Below are positions 10,080-20,401 of a stretch of DNA of 64,000 bases, one piece after another (position 1 is the stretch's first letter; every line of letters begins with the position of its first letter). The stretch spans positions 1 through 64,000 of the forward strand of contig JABUMY010000016.1 in assembly GCA_013327885.1 (NCBI GenBank). The letters run 5' to 3'. The translations under genes and the position numbers were made by a program. Under the pieces are notes generated by a model. The model had not been told where the DNA came from and ran no database searches. It was given only the letters and a program-made list of their open reading frames with translations. The DNA is from Flavisolibacter longurius (GTDB lineage Bacteria > Bacteroidota > Bacteroidia > Chitinophagales > Chitinophagaceae).

Positions 10080-13000
10080 ATGAATGATAACATGTATTGT
10101 GAACTTCAAATGACAACGGCCTTCAGTTTTCTTCGCGGTGCTTCACATCCGCATGAGATGGTTGACGAAGCCGCGCTGCTTGGCTACAAAACCATTGCGA
10201 TCACCGATCGAAACACAGTGGCGGGAGTTGTTCGTGCACATGCTGCCGGGAAGAAAAGGGGCGTTCGCATCATTCCAGGTTGCCGGTTGGATCTATTGGA
10301 TGGCCCAAGCCTCTTAGCCTATCCTACTTCCATACAAGCCTGGGCAAATCTTTGCACCTTGTTGTCTGTTGGAAACAGCCGTGCGGAAAAAGGTGAGTGC
10401 CATTTATACAAGGGGGATGTTTTTCAGTACAAAGAAGGCCTGCATTTCATTGTACTATCACCTGAAGCATTAGATGAAACGTTTTGTTTTGCTTCTTCGT
10501 TTGCGGAAGAACTGCTGATCTATAAAAACGCTTTCGGTAACGCCTTATCGCTGGCTATTACCCGGCGTTACAATGGCGATGATGGCAAACAGCTTTATCG
10601 CCTGGCTAAACTCTCCGAACAGCATGCCATTCCACTCGTGGCAACCAACGATGTACATTATCACTGTTCCGAAAGGCGGCAACTGCAGGATGTGCTGACC
10701 TGCATTCGTGAAAAGTGCACCATTCAAAATGCAGGCTTTCGCTTGTTGCCGAATGCAGAACGTTACCTGAAGTCGCAGGAAGAAATGAAGCGGCTCTTTC
10801 TTCATCATGCTGATGCTATCAACCGTACCATAGCGATTGCAGAAGCTTGTCAGTTTTCGTTGGATGAATTGAAGTACGAATATCCTGAAGAGGTAACCAC
10901 TGGTGGCAGAACGCCGTTGGAAGAAGTTGAATATCTCGCCTGGAACGGCGCTAAAAAATACTTCCCTCATTCCATTCCTGAAAAAGTATCCGAAGCCATT
11001 GTTCATGAAATGAAATTCATCAAAGAGATGAACTACGCTGCTTATTTCCTGACGGTTCATGACATTGTTCGCTTTGCCAGGAGCCGCGGTATTCTTTGCC
11101 AGGGACGAGGCTCGGCGGCCAATTCAACCGTTTGTTTTTGCCTGGGAATTACTTCGGTCAACCCGGCTGAAATCGATTTGCTTTTTGAGCGATTCATCTC
11201 TTCTGCACGCAACGAACCGCCGGATATTGATGTGGATTTTGAACATGAAAGACGGGAAGAAGTGATTCAATACATCTACGAAAAATATGGTAGGGACAGA
11301 GCCGCCATTGTTGCCACCGTTACGCAAATGCATGGCAAAGGCGCCATCCGTGATGTGGGAAAAGCCATGGGACTTTCGCTGGATTTGATCAGTAAACTTT
11401 CCGGCAGTATTCATCATTATGGCGGGACCGTGAGCGAAGAAGAAGTGAAAGAAATTGGTCTCAATCCCGCAGATCCCCATTTGAAAAAAGTGTTGGAACT
11501 AACGGCTCAATACATAGGTTTTCCCCGGCAGTTAGGACAACACACAGGAGGATTCATCATTACCCGCGGCAAGCTTACCCATCTCTGCCCGACCTTAAAT
11601 GCCCGCATGCTCGGACGTACCTGCGTGGAATGGAACAAGGATGACATAGATGCACTTGGTTTTTTAAAGATCGATGTGTTGGCACTAGGTATGCTTACCT
11701 GCATCAAAAAGGCGTTTGCAATTGCTGAGAAATATTATGGTAAAGAGTATAACCTCGCTAACATTCCACGGGATGATAAAAAGGTTTATGACATGATCTG
11801 TGCTGCCGATACCATTGGTGTTTTTCAAATTGAAAGCCGTGCACAGCAGGCAATGTTGCCAAGATTGAAGCCAAGGGTATTTTATGATTTGGTAATTGAG
11901 GTGGCTATCGTTCGCCCCGGACCCATTCAAGGTGATATGGTGCACCCTTACTTAAGGCGACGCAACAAGGAGGAGAAGGAAGAGTATCCATCGAAGGAGT
12001 TATACGAAATTTTGAAACGGACCAAAGGTGTTCCGCTTTTCCAGGAACAGGCCATGAAGATTGCCATTGTCGCCGGCGGGTTTTCGCCTGCGGAAGCCGA
12101 TGAACTACGAAGAAGCATGGCCACATTTAAGTTGCCGGGAACCGTGGGTACGTTAAAAGAAAAGCTGATAAACGGAATGGTAAAAAACAAGTATGATAAG
12201 GAATATGCAGAACGTGTATTCAAACAACTGGAAGGTTTTGGCTCCTACGGTTTTCCTGAAAGTCATGCGGCCTCTTTTGCTTTGTTGGTGTATGTGTCCA
12301 GCTACCTGAAATGTCATTACCCCGATGTTTTTGCCTGCGCCATTTTAAACAGCCAGCCCATGGGATTTTACCAGCCTTCGCAATTGGTGCAGGATGCGCA
12401 AAAACATGGCGTTGATGTTCGGCCCATCGACATCAATTATTCGGACTGGGATTATACGCTGGAAGAGCAGAGCGGTGCATACAAAGCATTGCGAATTGGC
12501 TTTCGCCAGGTAAAAGGCATTCGTGCCGATGAAATGGAAACATTGGTGAAGAGGAGGAAAGGTTTTTATCGAAGCGTTGATGAACTGCGTAGCATTGGTG
12601 TTGCAAATGCAACACTTGAACGCCTGGCCGATGCCGATGCCTTTCGTTCTATTGGTTTGGATAGAAGACAGGCACTTTGGGAGGTCAGTACAAAAGATAA
12701 CCAGCAGGCAATGTTTGCCGCTCAGCAAGCTCCCGATTCTATTGGTGAAGAAGTACAGTTGCCACAGCTTCAGCTATCCGAGCATGTGGTACAGGATTAC
12801 GGCGCCACATCGCTTTCCGTGAAAGCGCATCCCGTGAGTTTTCTGCGTTCGCAGTTAGCGCAATTGCATGTAACAGCTTCAAAAGATTTAGGTAAGCTGC
12901 AAAATGGACAGCCGGTAAAAGTTGCAGGCCTTGTGTTAGTGCGCCAACGCCCCGGCACGGCAAAAGGTGTTTGGTTTATGACGATTGAGGACGAAACTGG

Positions 13001-13289
13001 CTGTGCCAACCTCGTTATTTTTCCCAACGTGAATGACCTCTACCGCAAAGCGATGTTGAGTTCACGGCTATTCATGGCGGAGGGTACAGTACAAATTGAA
13101 GGCGAGGTGATTCATGTGATTGTTACGGCCGGTTATGACCTTTCCAAACTCTTGCGCAAGCTTACTTCAGTGGGCAGCGAAGATCTGCCTTTGCTGACCT
13201 TATCTCGTGCAGATGAAAAAGTGCCTGGTGCAGACAACCGTGTTGCAGCGCAACAAAAGCTTTTTCCGGATGCCAGGAATTTTCGGTGA
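10080..13289 (+). CDS. dnaE2: error-prone DNA polymerase III alpha subunit, DnaE2
   Basis: This is the catalytic polymerase of the ImuA-ImuB-DnaE2 mutasome, 1069 residues, as usual for DnaE2. The N-terminal PHP domain starts TAFSFLRGASHPHEM. The C-family palm is seen in the GRGSAANS region (around 343) and in PPDIDVDFEHERR with its paired acidic residues. Finger and tandem HhH domains and an OB fold (VKVAGLVLVRQRPGT, about 945) follow. It sits 66 bp after imuB on the same strand and completes the cassette. Confidence 0.95.
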   Translation: MNDNMYCELQMTTAFSFLRGASHPHEMVDEAALLGYKTIAITDRNTVAGVVRAHAAGKKRGVRIIPGCRLDLLDGPSLLAYPTSIQAWANLCTLLSVGNSRAEKGECHLYKGDVFQYKEGLHFIVLSPEALDETFCFASSFAEELLIYKNAFGNALSLAITRRYNGDDGKQLYRLAKLSEQHAIPLVATNDVHYHCSERRQLQDVLTCIREKCTIQNAGFRLLPNAERYLKSQEEMKRLFLHHADAINRTIAIAEACQFSLDELKYEYPEEVTTGGRTPLEEVEYLAWNGAKKYFPHSIPEKVSEAIVHEMKFIKEMNYAAYFLTVHDIVRFARSRGILCQGRGSAANSTVCFCLGITSVNPAEIDLLFERFISSARNEPPDIDVDFEHERREEVIQYIYEKYGRDRAAIVATVTQMHGKGAIRDVGKAMGLSLDLISKLSGSIHHYGGTVSEEEVKEIGLNPADPHLKKVLELTAQYIGFPRQLGQHTGGFIITRGKLTHLCPTLNARMLGRTCVEWNKDDIDALGFLKIDVLALGMLTCIKKAFAIAEKYYGKEYNLANIPRDDKKVYDMICAADTIGVFQIESRAQQAMLPRLKPRVFYDLVIEVAIVRPGPIQGDMVHPYLRRRNKEEKEEYPSKELYEILKRTKGVPLFQEQAMKIAIVAGGFSPAEADELRRSMATFKLPGTVGTLKEKLINGMVKNKYDKEYAERVFKQLEGFGSYGFPESHAASFALLVYVSSYLKCHYPDVFACAILNSQPMGFYQPSQLVQDAQKHGVDVRPIDINYSDWDYTLEEQSGAYKALRIGFRQVKGIRADEMETLVKRRKGFYRSVDELRSIGVANATLERLADADAFRSIGLDRRQALWEVSTKDNQQAMFAAQQAPDSIGEEVQLPQLQLSEHVVQDYGATSLSVKAHPVSFLRSQLAQLHVTASKDLGKLQNGQPVKVAGLVLVRQRPGTAKGVWFMTIEDETGCANLVIFPNVNDLYRKAMLSSRLFMAEGTVQIEGEVIHVIVTAGYDLSKLLRKLTSVGSEDLPLLTLSRADEKVPGADNRVAAQQKLFPDARNFR

Positions 13290-13330: not shown

Positions 13331-13765
13331 CTACCCGTGCATTTCTTCAATGATCTGCACATTCCAGCGGTTGCGTATAAGAAAGGCTGTTAGCAGAATG
13401 CGCATCCGTTCAACCGGTATTTGAAGAAACAACGCTGCCATGCCCAGCACCTCGCTTTGTTTATCATCAATGGCGCCCTTGCTGGTAACAATCTCGCAGA
13501 TCATGGCAAACAAGGTTTCGCGAAAGTCATCGGAAATTAATGGTGCAGCCTGTTCAAGAATGGTTTTCGTATCGCTTTCCTGCAAAAGCGAAATCGCTTT
13601 TACACTCAGTGCATTCGGGTCTGTGCCTGTAAACTTTGAACTCAGAACAATGGCTCGTGACAGTTGATCAACTTCTGAACTGGTTAGGTTTTTATGGTTG
13701 TACATCACGCAGGAAAACAAAATAGAAACAGCAGCTTCCTGTTCGGTTTTAATGGTCAGTGGCAT
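13331..13765 (-). CDS. TerB-like helical protein
   Basis: This 144-residue, all-helical protein resembles the TerB/tellurite-resistance fold in size and pattern, with repeated acidic helices around SKFTGTDPNALSV and SKGAIDDKQSEVLGMAALFLQI. TerB-like proteins are metal-binding or scaffold modules; no substrate is known for this form. A longer frame exists, but ATG 13765 (MPLTIKTEQEA) gives a more typical start. It stands alone, convergent with dnaE2. Confidence 0.6.
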   Translation of the reverse strand: MPLTIKTEQEAAVSILFSCVMYNHKNLTSSEVDQLSRAIVLSSKFTGTDPNALSVKAISLLQESDTKTILEQAAPLISDDFRETLFAMICEIVTSKGAIDDKQSEVLGMAALFLQIPVERMRILLTAFLIRNRWNVQIIEEMHG

Positions 13766-13884
13766 GCAAAAGGTTTGGGTCAAATGTAGGAAAGAGGAGA
13801 GAAGGCAAAGAACTTTAGACACGGGTAGTCTGCATGCAAAAGCGAAAGGAGAATACGTGCAATCGTTGATGAAATTTTTTGTCG

Positions 13885-13915
13885 GCTGAAACGCTTAACC
13901 AGCAAGCGTTTCAGC
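13885..13915. other. 12-bp perfect hairpin upstream of the RNA island promoter
   Basis: GCTGAAACGCTT (13885-13896) and its exact complement (13904-13915) flank a 7-nt loop. It is followed by ATTCTTT, a weak T-run. It could end read-through from dnaE2 or be an operator for the promoter 42 bp downstream. Neither is shown. Confidence 0.5.
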
Positions 13916-13956
13916 ATTCTTTGCAAACACGCTGCAAAAATTATTTTTAGAAAAAT

Positions 13957-13989
13957 TTTGGCTGTATGAAAAAATTAAATTCATCTTTG
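13957..13989 (+). promoter_or_regulatory. Bacteroidota-type promoter of the RNA island
   Basis: TTTG at 13957-13960 and CATCTTTG at 13982-13989 are spaced by 21 bp. They match the -33 TTTG / -7 TAnnTTTG arrangement of the group except for one base in the -7 box. A start near 13996 would put a short leader before the ATG at 14014. Confidence 0.55.
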
Positions 13990-14013
13990 CATCGCAAAAC
14001 AAATTAATAACTC

Positions 14014-14100
14014 ATGCTCCGCAATCCATTACATATCGAAACAAAAGGCTTTAGCCGGATTGGCTATAACCTTTGCGGGGCATGCGTTTCAACGAATTAG
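14014..14100 (+). CDS. putative 28-residue leader peptide, attenuator-like unit 1
   Basis: The ORF reads MLRNPLHIETKG, then Phe-Ser-Arg-Ile-Gly-Tyr-Asn-Leu-Cys-Gly-Ala-Cys-Val-Ser-Thr-Asn and stop. Its codons for Leu-Cys-Gly-Ala (TTTGCGGGGC, 14072-14081) are a perfect 10-base complement of 14127-14136, the left arm of the terminator that follows. A ribosome reaching the stop would cover this segment and let the terminator form. One stalled upstream would leave it free to pair. Phe, Tyr and Asn codons lie directly before the segment. Translation is not proven. Confidence 0.4.
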   Translation: MLRNPLHIETKGFSRIGYNLCGACVSTN

Positions 14101-14124
14101 CGTTAAACCAAAACGAATATGCAA

Positions 14125-14154
14125 AAGCCCCGCAAAACAATGCGGGGCTTTTTT
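14125..14154 (+). terminator. intrinsic terminator, attenuator-like unit 1
   Basis: AAGCCCCGC (14125-14133) and GCGGGGCTT (14142-14150) form a perfect 9-bp stem with an 8-nt loop, leading into a T-run. The left arm can pair instead with 14072-14081 in the leader ORF, which gives a mutually exclusive antiterminator. Confidence 0.85.
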
Positions 14155-14157
14155 ATT

Positions 14158-14189
14158 GTTTACAAAAAATCGTTGCACTGTTTGTAAAC
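14158..14189. repeat. 9-bp inverted repeat between the two attenuator-like units
   Basis: GTTTACAAA (14158-14166) and TTTGTAAAC (14181-14189) are exact inverted copies around 14 bases. There is no T-run. It may be an operator or an RNA hairpin that starts the second unit. Confidence 0.5.
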
Positions 14190-14230
14190 AAAGTGAACAG
14201 GCAAAATAACATAAAACGAAAAAACATTCA

Positions 14231-14392
14231 ATGCTAAAACAACAATACATAGCAATTCATCAAAGAAGTCCTTTAGGGGCGTGGTGTGCTCTTCCCAAAC
14301 CGGCTGCAATGCAGACGATCAGCAATGATCGATTTAATGGCCGCATGGAGAAGGTGTATTCCATCAAACGACCGGGTTGTATGCAAACGTAG
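14231..14392 (+). CDS. putative 53-residue leader ORF, attenuator-like unit 2
   Basis: The ORF runs from MLKQQYIAIHQRSPLG to a short C-terminus ending RPGCMQT. I do not recognise it. Its Arg-Pro-Gly codons include CGACCGGG (14369-14376), which exactly complements CCCGGTCG (14426-14433) in the left arm of the following terminator and repeats that terminator's right arm. This is the same three-segment plan as unit 1, with unrelated sequence. Coding status is uncertain. Confidence 0.35.
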   Translation: MLKQQYIAIHQRSPLGAWCALPKPAAMQTISNDRFNGRMEKVYSIKRPGCMQT

Positions 14393-14423
14393 TCCGCCTC
14401 AGGCAGATTTAACGGATAGCGAA

Positions 14424-14455
14424 AGCCCGGTCGATACCAACGACCGGGCTTTTTT
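14424..14455 (+). terminator. intrinsic terminator, attenuator-like unit 2
   Basis: AGCCCGGTCG (14424-14433) and CGACCGGGCT (14441-14450) give a 10-bp perfect stem with a 7-nt loop followed by TTTTT. The left arm can alternatively pair with 14369-14376 upstream. Confidence 0.85.
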
Positions 14456-14531
14456 GTTAGTCGAAGCTGGGAAGGATTTAAAATTATTGATTGGATGAGT
14501 AAGACACATCGATAAAAACAAAGGAGTGGTT

Positions 14532-14660
14532 ATGACTTTTTTAGTAGTGCTACTGGTGATAAGGTATCTCTTCACTCTTCTCGATAAAATAGGAAGATCG
14601 AAAGAGACAAACAATGATGGATGGCAGGACGGCCCTTCCGAACACAATGTGTGGTGGTAA
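14532..14660 (+). CDS. small membrane ORF, 42 residues
   Basis: ATG 14532 is preceded by AAAGGAG, an unusually good Shine-Dalgarno for this genome. The peptide starts MTFLVVLLVIRYLFTLLDK, one membrane helix, followed by a polar tail ending EHNVWW. I do not recognise a family. It lies between the attenuator-like units and tRNA-Asn in the same direction and would be the first normally translated product after them. Confidence 0.45.
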   Translation: MTFLVVLLVIRYLFTLLDKIGRSKETNNDGWQDGPSEHNVWW

Positions 14661-14687
14661 AAAAATATTAGGTGCAGAAAAGGAGGA

Positions 14688-14718
14688 AAGCATCCCCGTG
14701 AGATGCAGCGGGGAGCTT
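14688..14718 (+). other. stem-loop immediately 5' of tRNA-Asn
   Basis: AAGC, a bulged A and TCCCCG pair with CGGGGA and GCTT to give a 10-bp stem. It ends 3 nt before the tRNA. The tRNA-Tyr leader has the same plan: 4 bp, a 5'-side bulge, a GC stem and a 3-nt gap. Confidence 0.6.
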
Positions 14719-14721
14719 CAA

Positions 14722-14793
14722 GGATGAATAGCTCAATGGCAGAGCAGTGCCCTGTTAAGGCAAAGGTTGAACGTTCGAGTCGTTCTTCATCCG
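14722..14793 (+). tRNA. tRNA-Asn (anticodon GTT)
   Basis: A 72-nt cloverleaf. The acceptor is GGATGAA/TTCATCC, the D stem GCTC/GAGC and the T stem GAACG/CGTTC, all perfect, with T loop TTCGAGT. The anticodon loop CTGTTAA gives GTT at 14754-14756. One mismatch closes the anticodon stem. No CCA is encoded. The sequence is unlike the usual bacterial tRNA-Asn, so it may be a second, specialised copy. Confidence 0.85.
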
Positions 14794-14811
14794 CGATTAA
14801 AAACAAAGGTT

Positions 14812-15228
14812 ATGTTCCGGCGATTATTTAGAAAAATCAGGGATACGGTTGGCTTGTTCAACGGTCATTTTGTAGAAGCGAAAGCGTTTTACGCAATGGA
14901 GTTTGATGCCGTTAGCTGCGTCACGTTCATTGGCGACATTGATACCAGCAAAGGGTTTGCGTATGTAAAAGAAACGCTGCATGGTGAGATCGTCACTACC
15001 TACCAGCATTCTTACTTCGATCATGAAGAAGGCCGCCTGTTGTTTAATAACACTTTGTTTGTACTAACCGACAAGCGGATGATTGAACTGGGAGCAAACT
15101 GGTGCCAGGTTCTTCACACGCCTTTGCAACATGGCTGGGCCAACCAGCTGATTGAGCACCTGGCAACATTTAAAGTAAAAACGGCTGATCCTGTCATTGG
15201 TTTTTCGCGGCAGGCAGCAACAAATTAA
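14812..15228 (+). CDS. uncharacterised protein encoded between tRNA genes
   Basis: This 138-residue protein is not recognised. It begins MFRRLFRKIRDTVGLF (basic) and is followed by a beta-rich region with FDAVSCVTFIGDID and RLLFNNTLFVLTDKRMIELG. It ends with a helical segment and VIGFSRQAATN. There is no signal peptide or membrane helix. An in-frame codon at 14767 lies inside tRNA-Asn, so I use ATG 14812, 18 nt after the tRNA end. The tight tRNA-CDS-tRNA spacing suggests one transcript cut at the tRNA ends. Confidence 0.65.
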   Translation: MFRRLFRKIRDTVGLFNGHFVEAKAFYAMEFDAVSCVTFIGDIDTSKGFAYVKETLHGEIVTTYQHSYFDHEEGRLLFNNTLFVLTDKRMIELGANWCQVLHTPLQHGWANQLIEHLATFKVKTADPVIGFSRQAATN

Positions 15229-15230
15229 AA

Positions 15231-15253
15231 AGCCTGGAGCAAATGCTCCGGCT
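15231..15253 (+). other. stem-loop immediately 5' of tRNA-Tyr
   Basis: AGCC, a bulged T and GGAGC pair with GCTCC and GGCT around the tetraloop AAAT. It begins 2 nt after the preceding stop codon and ends 3 nt before the tRNA. Confidence 0.65.
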
Positions 15254-15256
15254 ACT

Positions 15257-15340
15257 GTGAGTGCGACAACGATGGCGAGTTGTGATGGTCTGTAAAACCA
15301 TTGCCTGCGGGCTGGGTTGGTTCGAATCCAACCACTCACG
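15257..15340 (+). tRNA. tRNA-Tyr (anticodon GTA)
   Basis: An 84-nt class II tRNA. The acceptor is GTGAGTG/CACTCAC, the D stem ACAAC/GTTGT, the anticodon stem ATGGT/ACCAT with loop CTGTAAA, and the T stem GTTGG/CCAAC with loop TTCGAAT. The 14-nt variable arm includes GCC-TGC-GGGC, as bacterial tRNA-Tyr requires. No CCA is encoded. Confidence 0.9.
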
Positions 15341-15383
15341 CGGAAGAAAGAAACGGTGGCGGTTGCTGCATAGCGAACAAGGC

Positions 15384-15402
15384 GTACAAGAGTGCGACGC
15401 AA
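15384..15402 (-). repeat. fragment of the dispersed GTACAAGAGTGCGACGCAA repeat
   Basis: These 19 bases are an exact reverse complement of 16275-16293, the left end of the element at 16272-16386. The copy lies in the spacer between tRNA-Tyr and tRNA-Phe. Confidence 0.7.
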
Positions 15403-15459
15403 GAAAAGCTAAATAGTAGTAATAGCTCACGGTTCATGAAAAGCGAAGTGAAAACAAAA

Positions 15460-15513
15460 AGATTAAACGAGAAAAGAACGAAACTTTCTTTTACGCATTC
15501 TCTCCTTTAATCT
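15460..15513 (+). other. stem-loop 5' of tRNA-Phe
   Basis: AGATTAAA (15460-15467) pairs with TTTAATCT (15506-15513), and GAGAA with TTCTC inside it. The helix is interrupted and AT-rich, with a 24-nt loop. It ends 7 nt before the tRNA. Confidence 0.5.
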
Positions 15514-15520
15514 CTCAGAC

Positions 15521-15592
15521 GGACGAATAGCTCCAATGGTAGAGCATCACGTTGAAGCCGTGACCGTACTGGTTCGAGTCCAGTTTCGTCCA
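15521..15592 (+). tRNA. tRNA-Phe (anticodon GAA)
   Basis: A 72-nt cloverleaf with acceptor GGACGAA/TTCGTCC, D stem GCTC/GAGC, anticodon stem TCACG/CGTGA with loop TTGAAGC, and T stem ACTGG/CCAGT with loop TTCGAGT. GAA is at 15554-15556. The loop has G37 where most bacterial tRNA-Phe have A37, so the usual modification there would be lost. No CCA is encoded. Confidence 0.88.
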
Positions 15593-15613
15593 CATGACAT
15601 AAACAATAAACCA

Positions 15614-16096
15614 ATGGAACAGCAGCAACGTTGGAGAAAGCTGGATGGTACTCGCATCAGGCAGTCAATGGAAGATGAAGTACGGCAGGTCATTTTAAGA
15701 GAAAAAGCCGCTGGTCATCAATTGAAAATTTGCATCGGTACTGACAGCCAGGTAAAAAGCAGGGAAACCGCCTTTGCCACCGTAATTGTGTTCATCCGCA
15801 AAGGACGTGGTGGGTTTATGTATATCCACAACGAAGTCACGTTGCAAAAGATGACCGTGAAGCAGCGGATGTTAACTGAAGTGGCAAAAAGCATCGAGGT
15901 GGCTTACTCGCTGTGCAGCCTGTTTACACTGTATGGTGTGGACATGGAAGTGCATGCGGATATCAACACCAATCCTTCTTTTAAAAGCAACAGTGCTTTG
16001 AGTGAAGCCATGGGGTATATCCTGGGAATGGGTTTTGCCTTCAGGGCCAAGCCGCATGCCTTTGCCAGCTCCAGTTGTGCAGATAAAGTTGTTTGA
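15614..16096 (+). CDS. YkuK-like (DUF458) RNase H-fold protein
   Basis: The 160-residue protein shows the DUF458/YkuK pattern: CIGTDSQVKSRETAFATVIV (strand with an acidic residue), then VDMEVHADINTNPSFKSNSALSEAMGYILGMGF with further acidic positions, ending ASSSCADKVV. The family is predicted to share the RNase H fold. Nuclease activity and substrate are unproven. ATG 15614 lies 21 nt after tRNA-Phe; an upstream in-frame codon would fall inside the tRNA. Its place among tRNA genes and near rtcB makes an RNA substrate plausible (inference). Confidence 0.8.
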   Translation: MEQQQRWRKLDGTRIRQSMEDEVRQVILREKAAGHQLKICIGTDSQVKSRETAFATVIVFIRKGRGGFMYIHNEVTLQKMTVKQRMLTEVAKSIEVAYSLCSLFTLYGVDMEVHADINTNPSFKSNSALSEAMGYILGMGFAFRAKPHAFASSSCADKVV

Positions 16097-16109
16097 TTTT
16101 TGACAGTTG

Positions 16110-16143
16110 GATTGGCGGGAAATGAAAAGCAATCCTGCCAATC
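16110..16143 (+). other. stem-loop 5' of the fourth tRNA-like element
   Basis: GATTGGCGGGA (16110-16120) pairs with TCCTGCCAATC (16133-16143), 11 bp with one G-U. It lies between the ykuK-like stop and the tRNA-like element, ending 7 nt before it, with no T-run. Confidence 0.6.
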
Positions 16144-16150
16144 ATTTCAC

Positions 16151-16229
16151 TGGCTTGTAGTTCAATGGGCAGAGTAGTCCGCTCAGGCGGATTATCTGCG
16201 GGTTGTGGGTTCGAGCCCCACCAGGCCAA
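16151..16229 (+). tRNA. tRNA-like element, irregular anticodon arm (possibly Leu CAG)
   Basis: The acceptor TGGCTTG/CAGGCCA (with one G-U) and T arm GTGGG/CCCAC with loop TTCGAGC are intact. The D stem GTTC/GAGT contains wobbles. The anticodon region does not fold with a 7-nt loop. The best arm is AGTCC/GGATT with 8 loop bases that include CAG after a T. An alternative perfect hairpin is TCCGC-TCAG-GCGGA. A variable region of 11 bases follows. It may be a pseudo-tRNA, a tRNA damaged by a palindrome, or a specialised RNA. Isotype is not secure. Confidence 0.5.
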
Positions 16230-16271
16230 CAGGAATTTTATGGGACCAGCGGTAGTGCTACTATTGAACGT

Positions 16272-16386
16272 CTGTTGCGTCGCACTCTTGTACTGCAGGT
16301 AACGTTGTTGAGCAGCTGTGTGTTTGAAATTGGCGTGAAATTGATGAATAGAATTACAGAACGATGAACGGATTGCGACGCAACAG
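16272..16386. repeat. MITE-like repeat with 13-bp inverted ends
   Basis: CTGTTGCGTCGCA (16272-16284) and TGCGACGCAACAG (16374-16386) are exact inverted termini. Parts recur elsewhere: 15384-15402 (19 bp, inverted), 47952-48004 (diverged left half), and GAATAGAATTACAGAACG at 16346-16363, repeated exactly at 57749-57766. This is a dispersed, non-coding repeat family. Confidence 0.75.
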
Positions 16387-16421
16387 GAGATCAACCGGAG
16401 CGATGTAGCTGGTATCAAAAA

Positions 16422-16905
16422 TTACTTTTCAATTAACTGGAAATACGCTTCTATGAAACGGTTTTTCCTTGGATTGTCTTTGTGTACGAGCATGGCCATC
16501 CGGTAATGCAGTCCGCCGGCTTCCACTTCGTTAGCTACCTGAATAATGGAATGTGAAGAATGCTCGGCATAAGAATACCAGCTCTTGAATTTCTTAAAAC
16601 GGGCGGCATCACGGCCATCAGAAGGGTCGCAAACATAAACAACCGCATTTGTTTTAGCGGCAAGGAAACGGGCCACGATCTCTACAATAGTAAACTGTAT
16701 ACGGTAATCAATGCCTTTGATTACTTCTTTGGAAATGCAGCTGACGTTAAACAGGAAAATATGCGAAGCAATGTCGGGATAATCTGTAAAGTATTCCGCA
16801 GCAAGAATAAAAATTGCATTCGTACGCAACACCTCGGTCGGTTGTGAAAGAAAAGTAATCAGGTTTGTGCTGGTAAATCTTATACGGTTGCGAACGAGTA
16901 TCCAT
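16422..16905 (-). pseudogene. DUF6169-like gene split by a frameshift
   Basis: Two frames together give one DUF6169-like protein. The N-terminal part from ATG 16905 reads PDYFSFTTDRGVAYECNF. The C-terminal part in another frame reads YFTDYPDIASHIFLFNVS and then VVYVCDPSDGRDAARFKK. The switch must fall near 16795-16830, around the GCAGC bases. Either the gene is inactivated, or the assembly has an indel, or a programmed frameshift is used. Function of the family is unknown. It is convergent with the tRNA island and next to rtcB. Confidence 0.6.
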
Positions 16906-17062
16906 ACTTTTCCCTGAGTTCCTGGTAGCTGATACCTTGTTGACGAGCTTCTTCCAGGAATTTTTGATCGGCAACGATTTTTTGTAAAATCTCAGCCTTT
17001 GTCTGTGGCTTGGAATTTTTAGTGTTTTCTTTCTTCGGCTCCTGCATCACTTTGTTAGACAT
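16880..17062 (-). CDS. small basic/helical protein, 60 residues
   Basis: The protein is rich in Lys, Glu and Gln. It begins MSNKVMQEPKKENTKN, then ADQKFLEEARQQGISYQELREKYGYSFATV. It is not recognised. The C-terminal part resembles a single helix-turn-helix-like or linker segment. The stop overlaps the start of the DUF6169-like gene by 26 bp, so the two are probably cotranscribed, divergent from rtcB with 57 bp between the starts. Confidence 0.5.
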   Translation of the reverse strand: MSNKVMQEPKKENTKNSKPQTKAEILQKIVADQKFLEEARQQGISYQELREKYGYSFATV

Positions 17063-17119
17063 AAAAACGATTTGTTCAAATTTACAAAAGAAAATCTGCG
17101 ATAATAAGCAGTAATAATT

Positions 17120-18571
17120 ATGGCAAAACTAAAATTAACAGGCAAGGAATTGCGGCAGTTAGGTTATCCTGAAGGGCCGGTCATTTCGATTGCCATGAAT
17201 GTAATGGAAAAAGCTTTCAAGCATCTTTCAAAAGAAGATGCGCTGGAGATATTAAGCGCGGTGCTGCAAAGTCCCAATCAATATGCAGAAGACGGTAAAC
17301 TTGGAAAAATTGCAGAAGCGCTGATTCCAAAGCCTAAAGTTGGTGGCGATGAATTGCCACTGGCTGAAAAAGGCATTTCCTTTAACGTGTTTGGTGCGGA
17401 AGGCATTGAGCAAGGCGCTTTGCATCAAATGCATACGGCGGCCAAACTTCCGGTAGCCGTTGCCGGGGCACTGATGCCCGATGCGCATCACGGTTATGGT
17501 CTGCCCATTGGCGGTGTGCTGGCTACTGAAAATGCGGTCATTCCGTACGGTGTGGGGGTGGACATTGGTTGCCGGATGGCGCTTTCCATTTTCGACATCA
17601 ACCCCAAAGAGCTGATCGATCGTGAACATTATTATGTGCGGGAACTGAACGAAGCGACCTTGTTTGGAAGTGGGTCTGTGTTTCAAAAACCTGCTGACCA
17701 TGAAGTCATGGAGCGGAAGGAATTTGATGAACTGGGCTTGCTGAAAGGCCTGCAGGGGAGAGCCTGGAAGCAGTTGGGTTCGTCGGGTTCGGGAAACCAT
17801 TTTGTGGAGTGGGGTGTAGTGGAGGTTAAGGATGAGGATAAGGTTCTGGGCGTAGCACCAGGTTCTTATATTGGTTTATTGTCGCATTCCGGTTCAAGAG
17901 CCTTGGGTGCCAACGTGGCCAACCATTACACCAAACTGGCAAAGGAAAAGCGGCGTCTGCCCGGCGATGCGGCAAACCTTGCCTGGCTTTCATTGGACGA
18001 ACAGGAAGGAATAGAATACTGGATGGCTATGAACCTGGCGGGTGATTATGCCTCGGCTTGTCACCACGTGATTCACGAAAAGATTGCAAAGCAGTTGGGC
18101 CGAAAGCCGCTGAAGATGGTAGAGAACCATCACAACTTTGCATGGAAGGAAAAATGGGAAGGTAGAGATGTGATTGTTCACCGTAAGGGAGCAACACCTG
18201 CCGGTAAAGATGTGTTGGGAATTATTCCAGGCTCTATGGCCGCACCGGGTTTTATTGTGAAAGGAAAAGGGGAGATGGCGTCGGTGAATTCGGCTTCGCA
18301 TGGTGCGGGGCGAAAGATGAGCCGTACCGCCGCGTTGAAATCCGTTACTCATAAAGAGCTGAACGAAGCACTGGCAAAACAGAGTGTGAAGCTCCTGGGT
18401 GGCGGATTGGATGAAGCACCGTTTGCTTACAAGGATATTCATGAAGTGATGAAGGCGCAAACGGCGTTGGTAGATACCGTTGGTGTGTTCTATCCCAAAA
18501 TTGTAAAAATGGATGGGGCACAGCCGAAGCAGTGGAAGAAGGGGAAGAGCGATGCGATTATGGGAGAGTAG
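17120..18571 (+). CDS. rtcB: RtcB RNA-splicing ligase
   Basis: RtcB joins 2',3'-cyclic phosphate (or 3'-phosphate) and 5'-OH RNA ends using GTP and Mn2+, repairing tRNAs cut by anticodon nucleases. The 483-residue protein has all core motifs: DAHHGYGLPIGG, GVDIGCRMA with the metal-binding Cys, GSGNHFVE, LSHSGSR, HHNF, GSMAAPGFIVKG, and ASHGAGRKMSR with the His that takes GMP. Neither rtcA, rtcR nor prfH is next to it. The upstream neighbours are four tRNA-like genes and a predicted RNase H-fold protein, an informative context for a tRNA ligase. Confidence 0.96.
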   Translation: MAKLKLTGKELRQLGYPEGPVISIAMNVMEKAFKHLSKEDALEILSAVLQSPNQYAEDGKLGKIAEALIPKPKVGGDELPLAEKGISFNVFGAEGIEQGALHQMHTAAKLPVAVAGALMPDAHHGYGLPIGGVLATENAVIPYGVGVDIGCRMALSIFDINPKELIDREHYYVRELNEATLFGSGSVFQKPADHEVMERKEFDELGLLKGLQGRAWKQLGSSGSGNHFVEWGVVEVKDEDKVLGVAPGSYIGLLSHSGSRALGANVANHYTKLAKEKRRLPGDAANLAWLSLDEQEGIEYWMAMNLAGDYASACHHVIHEKIAKQLGRKPLKMVENHHNFAWKEKWEGRDVIVHRKGATPAGKDVLGIIPGSMAAPGFIVKGKGEMASVNSASHGAGRKMSRTAALKSVTHKELNEALAKQSVKLLGGGLDEAPFAYKDIHEVMKAQTALVDTVGVFYPKIVKMDGAQPKQWKKGKSDAIMGE

Positions 18572-18805
18572 GCTGGAAGGATTTATGTTACGATCTACAG
18601 CACAATTAGAAGTTAACAGTTTATAACATCGTTTTCATCCGTTTCATGCCGTATCAGCTTGTCTTTACAGCCGATTCTTTTGTGTAATAGTAAGGATTGA
18701 TTCTGACATAGATGGAAAATGCATGGTGTAGAAATCTACAATGACATAGAGGATAATGAATTACCTTAAAAAGTCTTTTTAGGGGAAAAAATAACAACCA
18801 CAAAT
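18572..18805. other. intergenic, no gene seen
   Basis: This is AT-rich sequence after rtcB without an open frame of note. No terminator with a T-run was found directly after the rtcB stop. It runs up to the MITE-like element. Confidence 0.5.
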
Positions 18806-18810
18806 GATTA

Positions 18811-19022
18811 ACTCAACTTACGCAGCCATTTTTCGTTTTTTCACAGCAAAGTGTATGCTGGGACAGGGTTTCAGCCAAATCTTGTCTAAGTGAGAATTGG
18901 CTTATTTTACGTATTTTTCATTCTGTCTATTCTTCAAACCCAATTAGCTTAGACTCCGAACCAGAAAGGCTTTTCACAGATGTCGAGTGCTGAAAGCGTG
19001 AATTTGACTGCGTAAGTTGAGT
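18811..19022. mobile_element. 212-bp MITE with 15-bp terminal inverted repeats
   Basis: ACTCAACTTACGCAG (18811-18825) is matched exactly in inverse at 19008-19022. The pentamer GATTA lies directly outside both ends (18806-18810 and 19023-19027), as expected of a target-site duplication. No transposase frame is present, so it is non-autonomous. Partial similarity between the ends continues a few bases further inward. The parent insertion sequence is not in the window. Confidence 0.85.
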
Positions 19023-19228
19023 GATTAACTGATCGTTATTGATTGATAAGTGTTTATTATTAGTTTCTGATTAGAAACCATTACGCCTGAATTGTAAAGC
19101 GGTATTCTTTGCAATTTTTCTGCAAATTTGCCGAAAATTGACGGCCTAAGCAATATACGGTTGAGGTTAGCAAATTTATTCATTGTTAGGCGAACCTAGT
19201 GTGAATAGATCATCAAAAGTGATATAAA

Positions 19229-20401
19229 ATGAAAAGCCAGTTACTCAAGCACTATCTATTTAAAGTTGTTCCTTATCCTATTGTTCGCAGGATCCTAAAA
19301 CACCTGAATTTTAGAAGTCTTTTCTTTTCATATGCAGAAGTTGACAGCTCACAATATCTTGTTCAGGATACCAATTATGTTTACAGGTTTCATGGTATGG
19401 AGGAAGAACTTGGTCACAAGGTTATAACTGGTTTTATTCGTCAGACAATGACGTTTATCAAGCCGTATAAGTTGCAGCGGGAATATATCCTGGATGGTGG
19501 CAAATGTTACATAGAACCGAAACACGGATGGGGCATTCGTTTTGGTACCCGTCAGTTAATTAAGGACTCTATTATCTATAACCGTCTTATTGAGGCATAT
19601 TACCCTCCCTTGCTGAAATTTCTTTTTTTCAAAAAAAGAAATTTGAAGCATTTTCCCAAAGCCGTATCTCTCCATATGATCGCTGGTGGCGAAAAAAACT
19701 ATTGGCACTTATTTACCAATATCCTCGGCGTGGTAACGCTTTTGGACAAGCATAATTTTCCAAGGGACATACCCTTGGTGATACCTAAAAAGCTGGCTGA
19801 CCAGAAGATCTTTAAAGAAGTCGTGGATTATTCTGAAGATCTGAAAAACCGTAACTGGGTCATCCAGGAAAACGAATATATTCTGGCAGACCAAGTGTTT
19901 TTTTGCCAGCGTATGCTGAATCAAAAAGATCAGTTTGCCCGGCTTTTAGATCTGCTTCGCATTCCTGATGCTGACAAAAATGTTCGCCGCAAAATTTATG
20001 TTTATCGCAATCCTAAACGGATTCGATTTATCAATAACGATAATGAGATCCAGGAGGTTGTCAGACGCTATGGATTTGAAGTGGTGGATTGCGATGAGTT
20101 AAATTTTGCCGAGCAAGTAGAATTATTTCAGCAGTGCTCCCATATTGTTAGTATACATGGCGCCGGGCTAACCAATATTGTTTGGCGAAGAAACGCCCCG
20201 ATGACTATCTTAGAATTATTTCCAGAAAACTATGTGCAACCAACCTATTTCTGGCTGGCAAAAAATTTCGGAAAAACCTATTATGCTTTGACCGGCGGTA
20301 AAATTTTACCCGATTCTTCTTTCTATCTTAATCCGGAAAAACTGGAACAAAAACTAAAACAAATTCTCTCTACTGAAAATACAGCAGTGATGAGCCGGTA
20401 A
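19229..20401 (+). CDS. glycosyltransferase family 61 protein
   Basis: This 390-residue protein has the GT61 (DUF563) signature in its C-terminal half: SIHGAGLTNIVW and then LELFPENYVQPTYFWLA. The middle contains KRIRFINN and GGEKNYWHLF. GT61 enzymes transfer xylose, GlcNAc or other sugars. The acceptor here is unknown. It is AT-rich compared with rtcB and lies at the edge of the polysaccharide locus. A paralogue at 33916 shares the same plan, including YGWGI/HGWGIR, HGAGL and the closing segment. No membrane anchor is seen. Confidence 0.88.
   Translation: MKSQLLKHYLFKVVPYPIVRRILKHLNFRSLFFSYAEVDSSQYLVQDTNYVYRFHGMEEELGHKVITGFIRQTMTFIKPYKLQREYILDGGKCYIEPKHGWGIRFGTRQLIKDSIIYNRLIEAYYPPLLKFLFFKKRNLKHFPKAVSLHMIAGGEKNYWHLFTNILGVVTLLDKHNFPRDIPLVIPKKLADQKIFKEVVDYSEDLKNRNWVIQENEYILADQVFFCQRMLNQKDQFARLLDLLRIPDADKNVRRKIYVYRNPKRIRFINNDNEIQEVVRRYGFEVVDCDELNFAEQVELFQQCSHIVSIHGAGLTNIVWRRNAPMTILELFPENYVQPTYFWLAKNFGKTYYALTGGKILPDSSFYLNPEKLEQKLKQILSTENTAVMSR

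Follow-up and report, generated by a model that had tools for sequence, protein, structure and literature searches.

The window examined here is a 64,000-nucleotide (nt) stretch of Flavisolibacter longurius DNA (assembly GCA_013327885.1, contig JABUMY010000016.1, positions 1 to 64,000). At positions 13957-18571 it carries an island of divergent tRNA genes interleaved with protein genes and followed by the RNA ligase gene rtcB. Comparison with related genomes identifies the island as a reduced copy of a module conserved in the Chitinophagaceae, which probably provides an inducible reserve of tRNAs together with RNA repair.

The island opens with a promoter-like sequence (TTTTGG ... TTCATCTTTG, 13957-13989), read from its likeness to what we take to be the Bacteroidota promoter consensus; a similar sequence precedes the leader of a related locus, L202. 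Unless stated otherwise, this and the following features lie on the plus strand. The first leader open reading frame (ORF), MLRNPLHIETKGFSRIGYNLCGACVSTN (14014-14100), runs into attenuator 1 (14075-14154), whose arm A (14075-14081) lies within the ORF and whose arms B (14127-14133) and C (14142-14148) are followed by a T run. The terminator of this unit is supported, and arms A and B may form an antiterminator. Leader ORF 2 (14231-14392), with an uncertain start codon, encodes 53 residues that include all 20 amino acids and overlaps attenuator 2 (14369-14455), with arm A at 14369-14376 within the ORF, arm B at 14425-14433, arm C at 14441-14449 and a T run; its antiterminator pairing is likewise putative. 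Next come a small membrane ORF of 44 amino acids (14526-14660), which found no match in family searches and is perhaps a detached form of the membrane anchor found at the N-terminus of longer homologues of the orphan protein described below, and a conserved element directly 5′ of the first tRNA (14657-14721, 89% identical to L202). This element contains a CCCCG/CGGGG hairpin, matches sequences upstream of several arrays and is perhaps a processing or antitermination signal.

Three array-type tRNAs called by ARAGORN follow, namely tRNA-Asn(GUU) (14722-14794), tRNA-Tyr(GUA) with discriminator G (15257-15341) and tRNA-Phe(GAA) with the anticodon loop TTGAAGC vs the core CTGAAAA (15521-15593). An orphan gene of 138 codons (14812-15228, ATG at 14812) stands 17 nt past tRNA-Asn, and ykuK2 (15614-16096, ATG at 15614), an RNase H-like gene (PF04308, E 2.2e-35), stands 20 nt past tRNA-Phe. 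A disrupted tRNA-Lys(CUU) (16151-16230) and the former 5′ flank of rtcB, as it appears to be (16338-16421), precede what looks like an inserted minus-strand cassette (16422-17062) made of a DUF6169 gene (16422-16832, E 7.4e-14) and a 60-amino-acid ORF (16880-17062). The rtcB gene (17120-18571) encodes 483 amino acids (PF01139, E 2.1e-80) that can be aligned to solved RtcB chains. Copies of an interspersed palindromic repeat occupy two spacers of the locus, between tRNA-Tyr and tRNA-Phe (15384-15419) and behind the disrupted tRNA (16236-16398), with no strand assigned; the repeat resembles repetitive extragenic palindromic (REP) elements and has about 50 matches in the genome. A preliminary description based on the sequence alone had listed this order of features on one strand, and ARAGORN calls, Pfam matches and conservation of the attenuator units bear it out, as they do the close spacing of genes behind tRNA 3′ ends and the DUF6169 gene before rtcB. 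It overlooked the leader ORFs before the attenuators, the AAA gene, tRNA-like RNA and slipin of full copies, and the cassette that cuts off rtcB.

Full copies of the module carry, on one strand, the two-attenuator leader, up to 18 tRNAs in a set order, ykuK2, a Bcs1-like AAA ATPase, an RNA of about 340 nt, a slipin and rtcB. The typical array order is Pro-(Gly)-Glu-Asp-Gln-His-Arg-(Leu)-Met-Ile-Val-Lys-Asn-Tyr-Ser-Phe-(Trp), after which ykuK2 and the AAA gene stand in either order, followed by slipin and rtcB; some members are missing at many loci. The window order Asn-Tyr-Phe-ykuK2-rtcB is a subset of this arrangement. A search with the window RtcB in 117 genomes of the family, drawn from a larger group, gave 75 matches in 60 genomes. 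The sequence around 72 of them was taken, up to 9 kb per side and less where a contig ended (of the other three, two lie inside fetched neighbourhoods and one is the window itself). Upstream of these 72 genes the same strand holds 76 tRNAs and the opposite strand none; three tRNAs lie downstream. These counts rule out chance proximity of tRNAs and rtcB.

With a line at 56.5% identity, set after seeing the data, the 39 RtcB proteins at or above it have upstream tRNAs at 13 loci (at least three tRNAs at 8), ykuK at 11, AAA at 17, slipin at 14 and the orphan at 6. The 33 more distant ones have upstream tRNAs at 3 loci (at least three at one), AAA at one, slipin at two, and neither ykuK nor the orphan. 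One very distant RtcB (28%; L197, genome G128) has tRNAs for Phe, Arg and His within 300 nt upstream. A profile of the AAA protein, taken as anchor, found 270 relatives. Among the best 80, recorded as Chitinophagaceae or uncultured Bacteroidota, 50 loci have a tRNA on either strand, 37 at least three tRNAs, 55 rtcB (54 on the same strand), 42 ykuK and 38 slipin. The link to rtcB and ykuK is thus conserved in both kinds of neighbourhood, and the free variation of neighbours that would have spoken against the preliminary description is not what is found. AAA genes with neither tRNAs nor rtcB occur at L224, L241, L254, L256, L258, L259, L261, L263, L267-L270, L275 and L276; several AAA-only loci retain a unit like that of leader 2.

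The AAA profile matches mitochondrial BCS1 among solved structures (E 3.9e-6). The orphan protein of the window matches the N-domain of the module AAA protein, and a C-terminal IGF tail is common to both, which identifies the orphan, at the level of sequence, as a stand-alone form of that N-domain; both proteins are present at L205, L242, L253, L265 and L266. The window ykuK is a second paralogue. A ykuK gene was found in 29 of 38 genomes searched and two copies in eight, the window genome included. In all eight, one copy has same-strand tRNAs within 1.7 kb upstream, with AAA or orphan genes standing between the tRNAs and ykuK in three, and the other copy has no tRNAs in the stretch examined. 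Among 29 ykuK loci of relatives (1.5 kb flanks), tRNAs occur at four, all of them second copies. Comparison of ykuK2 with solved structures gave no match (best E 0.75). In another family of the class, tRNA arrays also adjoin ykuK (L386, L387; no slipin match in the stretch), and ykuK2 may therefore be an old partner of tRNA arrays.

The island tRNAs are extra copies, since the genome holds two housekeeping tRNA-Asn genes, one for tRNA-Tyr and one for tRNA-Phe elsewhere. That they are spare and divergent, rather than the only copies, agrees with the preliminary description. They are 59, 62 and 68% identical to their own core isoacceptors (Asn, Tyr and Phe, respectively) and nearer to other core tRNAs than to these. 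Window tRNA-Asn and tRNA-Phe reach 92% identity to array tRNAs of other genera (tRNA-Asn to one of Niastella soli) and tRNA-Tyr 81%. An Rfam scan of the window at gathering thresholds reported three of the four island elements, missing tRNA-Tyr; a scan of the whole genome (5.75 Mb in 52 contigs; 48 matches among 150 of 266 candidates scored) passed all four, the fourth element (40.5 bits) and tRNA-Tyr (35.8) being the lowest two of the 48. The fourth element, listed as tRNA-like in the preliminary description, aligns on both flanks, at 65 of 80 positions, with tRNA-Lys(CUU) of Flavisolibacter sp. RYN_287, which occupies the corresponding place 3′ of ykuK2. This alignment rules out a working tRNA with an odd loop and marks the element as a disrupted tRNA-Lys(CUU), its anticodon arm replaced by a palindrome. 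The insert resembles, and by that resemblance is probably a copy of, the repeat TCCGCCTNAGGCGGA, which has 14 strand matches in the genome at up to one mismatch (none for the reversed pattern).

Across relatives, 36 named loci with at least three same-strand tRNAs hold 308 array tRNAs, as counted with ARAGORN, which may miss class II tRNAs. The commonest isoacceptors by locus are Asn and Phe (27 each), His and Lys(UUU) (25 each), and Arg(ACG) and Gln(UUG) (24 each). Met and Asp (16 each), Glu (15), Ile(UAU) and Pro (14 each) and Ile(GAU) (12) form a middle group; Ser(GCU) (11), Trp (9), Tyr (6), Val (4) and Ala (3) are rarer, and Thr is absent. Mean identity to core tRNAs with the same anticodon is 54-71%, for a core set taken from two genomes (41 and 27 tRNAs, the second incomplete). 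Core tRNAs of these two genera agree with one another at 81-100%, and array tRNAs of different loci at 71-84% for the eight isoacceptors sampled. Array tRNAs form a lineage separate from housekeeping tRNAs, and extra tRNAs stand beside housekeeping copies both in the window genome and in Lacibacter luteus.

Since array tRNAs were grouped by anticodon, its retention is a matter of definition. U33 is retained in 273 of 282, and the anticodon stem is the most divergent part, with 35% agreement with the core vs 65% for the body; loop positions 32, 37 and 38 agree in 51, 54 and 48% of array tRNAs. Most array tRNAs for Phe, His, Gln, Arg(ACG), Ile(GAU), Asp, Glu and Pro carry consistent loop changes. 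Loops that differ from those of host isoacceptors are therefore present in the arrays, though not clearly beyond general drift. Discriminator bases are well kept in Asn (G, 24/27), His (C, 25/25), Lys (A, 23/25), Asp (G, 14/16), Trp (G, 9/9) and Tyr (A, 6/6), and less so in Phe (A, 16/27), Gln (A, 15/24), Arg (A, 12/25) and Glu (A, 6/15).

Of 32 arrays tested, 27 have a terminator-like hairpin no more than 700 nt from their first tRNA; on the opposite strand 8 of 32 do, and among random same-strand stretches 45 of 579. CCCCG stems, as in unit 1, are found at 18 of 32 arrays vs 5 of 579 random stretches, and CCCGG stems, as in unit 2, at 24 of 32 vs 2 of 579. Terminator 1 also lies within 9 kb upstream of 26 of the 39 window-like rtcB genes, some of which stand without tRNAs, vs 3 of the other 33, and neither terminator was found within 6 kb downstream of any of the 72 rtcB genes. 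On this comparison the two attenuator-like units are real and conserved; in terminator 1, 97.1% of cells pair across 31 unit 1 loci and two pairs are changed on both sides. The matches of Rfam leader families to the window leader all stay below the respective cut-offs.

Arm A of each unit falls within the 3′ end of a short ORF. Of the 53 loci with unit 1, 45 have such an ORF; 39 of these passed a motif filter and encode a conserved peptide about 30 residues long. Of the 49 loci with unit 2, 41 have an ORF; its peptide is looser, with RP within the last 12 residues in 32. The synonymous share of codon differences is higher in the coding frame than in the shifted frames for unit 1 (0.178 vs 0.102 and 0.097) and unit 2 (0.104 vs 0.070 and 0.057), which is consistent with coding constraint on leader ORFs that end before the terminators. 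The leaders contain no cluster of codons for a single amino acid and are instead highly diverse. Counted without the start Met and compared with random protein segments of equal length (400 simulations), leader 1 peptides contain 17.28 kinds of amino acid vs 14.17 (standard deviation 0.25, best simulation 14.82). All 45 unfiltered peptides contain 16.93 vs 14.00, and the 11 non-redundant ones among these 16.00 vs 13.94 (best 15.18). Leader 2 contains 18.37 kinds vs 16.47, or 18.44 vs 16.61 (best 17.63) for 27 non-redundant peptides. Together the two leaders cover all 20 amino acids at 20 of 24 loci, vs a mean of 3.9 and a maximum of 11 in 2000 simulated runs. In the window, leader 1 contains 16 kinds, leader 2 all 20, and so do both together.

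A conserved region of about 340 nt lies 5′ of slipin in full copies. RNAalifold predicts 61 pairs from 28 sequences, 42 of them with compensatory changes. In the predicted fold the 3′ part forms two circularly permuted tRNA-like units, each with a T-arm, a closed acceptor stem and a D-arm in succession; unit 1 is closed by a stem at the place of the anticodon stem, and unit 2 ends in an anticodon-like hairpin. In 27 sequences of relatives 96.9% of 966 cells are paired, vs 36-49% in slid controls, and both partners vary in 31 of the 36 pairs. The permuted fold of YrlA type (T-arm, closed acceptor, D-arm, closing stem) is present in these 27. The two loci scored against Rfam YrlA fall below its gathering threshold of 69 (RF02553; L211 38.6 bits, E 7.8e-7, over the full model; L217 28.7 bits). 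A model of the RNA, run over 296 genomes of the phylum with 10 candidates scored per genome, reported 182 genomes at E 1e-9, nine of which reach at least 95 bits, a line chosen after inspecting the list. Below about 77 bits the model mostly finds tandem ordinary tRNAs, among the matches inspected; matches of 55-57 bits before slipin at L265 and L090 suggest that the 95-bit line misses some true members. The eight matches of at least 95 bits outside the family all have slipin directly downstream and, in seven, same-strand tRNAs upstream; ykuK was found at two and an RtcB-like match at two (29 and 53%).

The window copy lacks several of these parts. AAA domain, slipin and permuted RNA are not found at the locus, and model searches found no permuted RNA in the window or its genome: window matches lie on or beside the island tRNAs, and the strongest matches compared elsewhere are ordinary tRNAs (best 45 bits, a tandem core tRNA-Asn). 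A slipin search of the genome gave only a slipin-like match of 22% identity. An AAA homologue on another contig, C22 (E 1.9e-71 to the profile, with one TGA inside), may be a distant copy. The sequence at 16338-16421 is 86% identical to that directly 5′ of rtcB in F. nicotianae (L240:11065-11148), and the opposite-strand cassette sits between this former flank and rtcB. With the cassette before rtcB and three members missing, the window copy is a shrunken module that keeps the leaders, three intact tRNAs, the orphan, ykuK2 and rtcB. RtcA, RtcR and Ro60 (Rsr) have no match among the eight window proteins scanned (13331-20398), and PADLOC at E 0.01 assigns no family to the orphan, ykuK2, RtcB, DUF6169 or slipin, with weak AAA matches. 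Upstream lies a long plus-strand ORF (10080-13289), presumably similar to error-prone DnaE polymerase, near a minus-strand TerB-like ORF (13331-13822).

On the best reading, which is probably right, the locus is a reduced form of an inducible module for tRNA reserve and RNA repair, in which spare tRNAs would guard against tRNA damage and RtcB would serve in repair. Comparison among relatives supports the gene set and its strand, the tRNA lineage, the RNA fold, the terminators and the diverse leader ORFs; ribosome stalling as the signal, evasion of nucleases and a decoy or scaffold role would be the functional side. In normal translation, ribosomes would finish leader ORFs 1 and 2 and leave arm A open, arms B and C would form the terminators, and the module would be off. 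A shortage of aminoacyl-tRNA, triggered by anticodon nucleases, toxins or translation inhibitors, would stall ribosomes early, so that A pairs with B and transcription continues. Spare tRNAs from the array, in part perhaps beyond the reach of the nuclease, would then become available, RtcB would seal cut tRNAs, and the permuted RNA with slipin and the AAA protein would act as decoy or scaffold. Spare, divergent tRNAs linked to rtcB and ykuK were already part of the preliminary interpretation and stand; trimming by the RNase H-fold protein stays conjectural, and the fourth element as a working tRNA falls away.

A bolder version is conceivable, if somewhat less than an even bet. The tandem leaders, each sampling about 17-18 of 20 amino acids in 30-50 codons, would form a pan-tRNA sensor, coupled to immunity against tRNA-cutting toxins or defences through nuclease-evading tRNAs, RtcB and an RNA mimicking two permuted tRNAs that slipin and the Bcs1-like ATPase would hold. 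If true, the module would be a bacterial counterpart of phage tRNA arrays, explain the second, divergent tRNA set of some bacteria, give a large tRNA-mimic RNA a genomic home and add a regulatory logic in which one attenuator checks for many amino acids together. In the open-access literature searched, no paper was recognised as describing the module or such an attenuator.

Several observations weigh against the tRNA-reserve and repair interpretation. Upstream tRNAs occur at only 13 of 39 window-like rtcB loci, terminator 1 is missing upstream of 13 of the 39, and 14 of the 80 AAA loci, mostly in Chitinophaga, have neither a tRNA nor rtcB in the stretch. In the window the cassette separates rtcB from the leader, and only one of three intact tRNAs (Phe) has an anticodon loop unlike the core. 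Array loops for Lys, Met, Tyr, Trp, Cys and Gly are mostly core-like, and since loop positions agree with the core only somewhat less than the body does, loop change may be drift. The A:B antiterminator pairs in 91.6% of 310 cells over 31 unit 1 loci, with nearly invariant arms and no covariation beyond shuffles. The eight non-redundant leader 1 peptides contain 16.12 kinds of amino acid vs 14.33 (standard deviation 0.56), a value also reached by the best of 400 simulations.

That the window copy is a decaying relic without function is unlikely, though it is the strongest of the alternatives. The missing slipin and permuted RNA, the AAA homologue that survives only elsewhere with a stop inside, the disrupted fourth tRNA, the cassette before rtcB and the G discriminator of tRNA-Tyr all point that way. 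Against decay, the leaders, tRNA-Asn, tRNA-Phe and the orphan are intact, as are ykuK2 (84% to a relative) and rtcB (94%). It is improbable that the array is a general translation booster, adding tRNA capacity for growth or codon use while RtcB and its partners perform an unrelated RNA task. Several core-like discriminator bases mean that array tRNAs could be charged, and arrays reach 18 tRNAs; their composition is skewed (Thr in none of 36 arrays, Ala and Val in three and four, Asn and Phe in 27 each), core tRNAs already carry the common array anticodons except Ile(UAU), and a leader of the same kind precedes rtcB genes without tRNAs. About equally improbable is a decoy system in which array tRNAs and permuted RNA would play no part in translation, their main task being to titrate nucleases or to direct slipin and the AAA protein. 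Divergent bodies and anticodon stems and the closed acceptor stem of the permuted RNA would suit it, and passages of PMC7790460 suggest Y RNA as a competitive inhibitor of a tRNA nuclease; the retained U33 and the discriminators kept in six isoacceptors, less so in Phe, Gln, Arg and Glu, argue otherwise. Weakest and quite improbable is an origin of the tRNAs in phages or mobile elements that brought them next to rtcB. AAA relatives lie on 39 viral contigs (L310-L348), 18 with tRNAs in the fetched stretch, AAA, ykuK2 and RtcB match phage families, and the Ile(GAU) loops of phages, with some of their Arg(ACG) loops, are identical to array loops. Against it, order, strand and leader recur across genera, the phage loops for Phe, His, Asp and Pro and most of those for Glu are core-type or near it, and ykuK, slipin and rtcB had no match at E 1e-4 in the 39 viral neighbourhoods. 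A phage origin of the array tRNAs is thus not supported by most loops. Some of these viral contigs exceed 300 kb, and several carry 10-22 tRNAs.

Among known systems, the trp, his and phe operon attenuators consist of a leader ORF, a terminator and a complementary upstream arm. The module leaders share these parts, but have two units in series and unusually diverse peptides in place of a single-codon run. Burroughs and Aravind (2016) reportedly described Band-7/SPFH RNA-repair systems with slipin, RtcB and a novel tRNA-like molecule; the RNA of about 340 nt probably corresponds or is akin to it. Phage tRNA arrays, according to passages of PMC10264068, carry anticodon-loop mutations and so resemble the module in having extra tRNAs with loops unlike those of the host; the module differs in forming bacterial loci with repair genes, and most of its changed loops are unlike those of the viral contigs examined. 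The RtcB RNA-repair operon of E. coli and Salmonella, as parts of PMC7790460 present it, shares RtcB, the YrlA RNA with its tRNA-like domain and regulation tied to tRNA damage, RtcR binding tRNA halves in S. Typhimurium. The module differs in its tRNA arrays, its ykuK2, AAA and slipin genes, an RNA of two units that scores below the YrlA cut-off, leader ORFs followed by terminators, and the lack of RtcA, RtcR or Ro60 matches among the eight window proteins scanned. The nearest described case appears to be the TrcR regulon of Anabaena. According to passages of PMC10272220, TrcR acts as repressor of an operon of 26 tRNAs and of rtcB, a slipin and an AAA gene, and translation-targeting antibiotics induce the tRNA operon. 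The likeness lies in a long operon of additional tRNAs that is under common control with rtcB, a slipin and an AAA gene and responds to translation stress; for the module, this control is the proposed one. The difference is one of architecture: the Anabaena loci are scattered under a DNA-binding repressor, whereas the module described here, known from sequence, gathers neighbouring genes behind leader attenuators.

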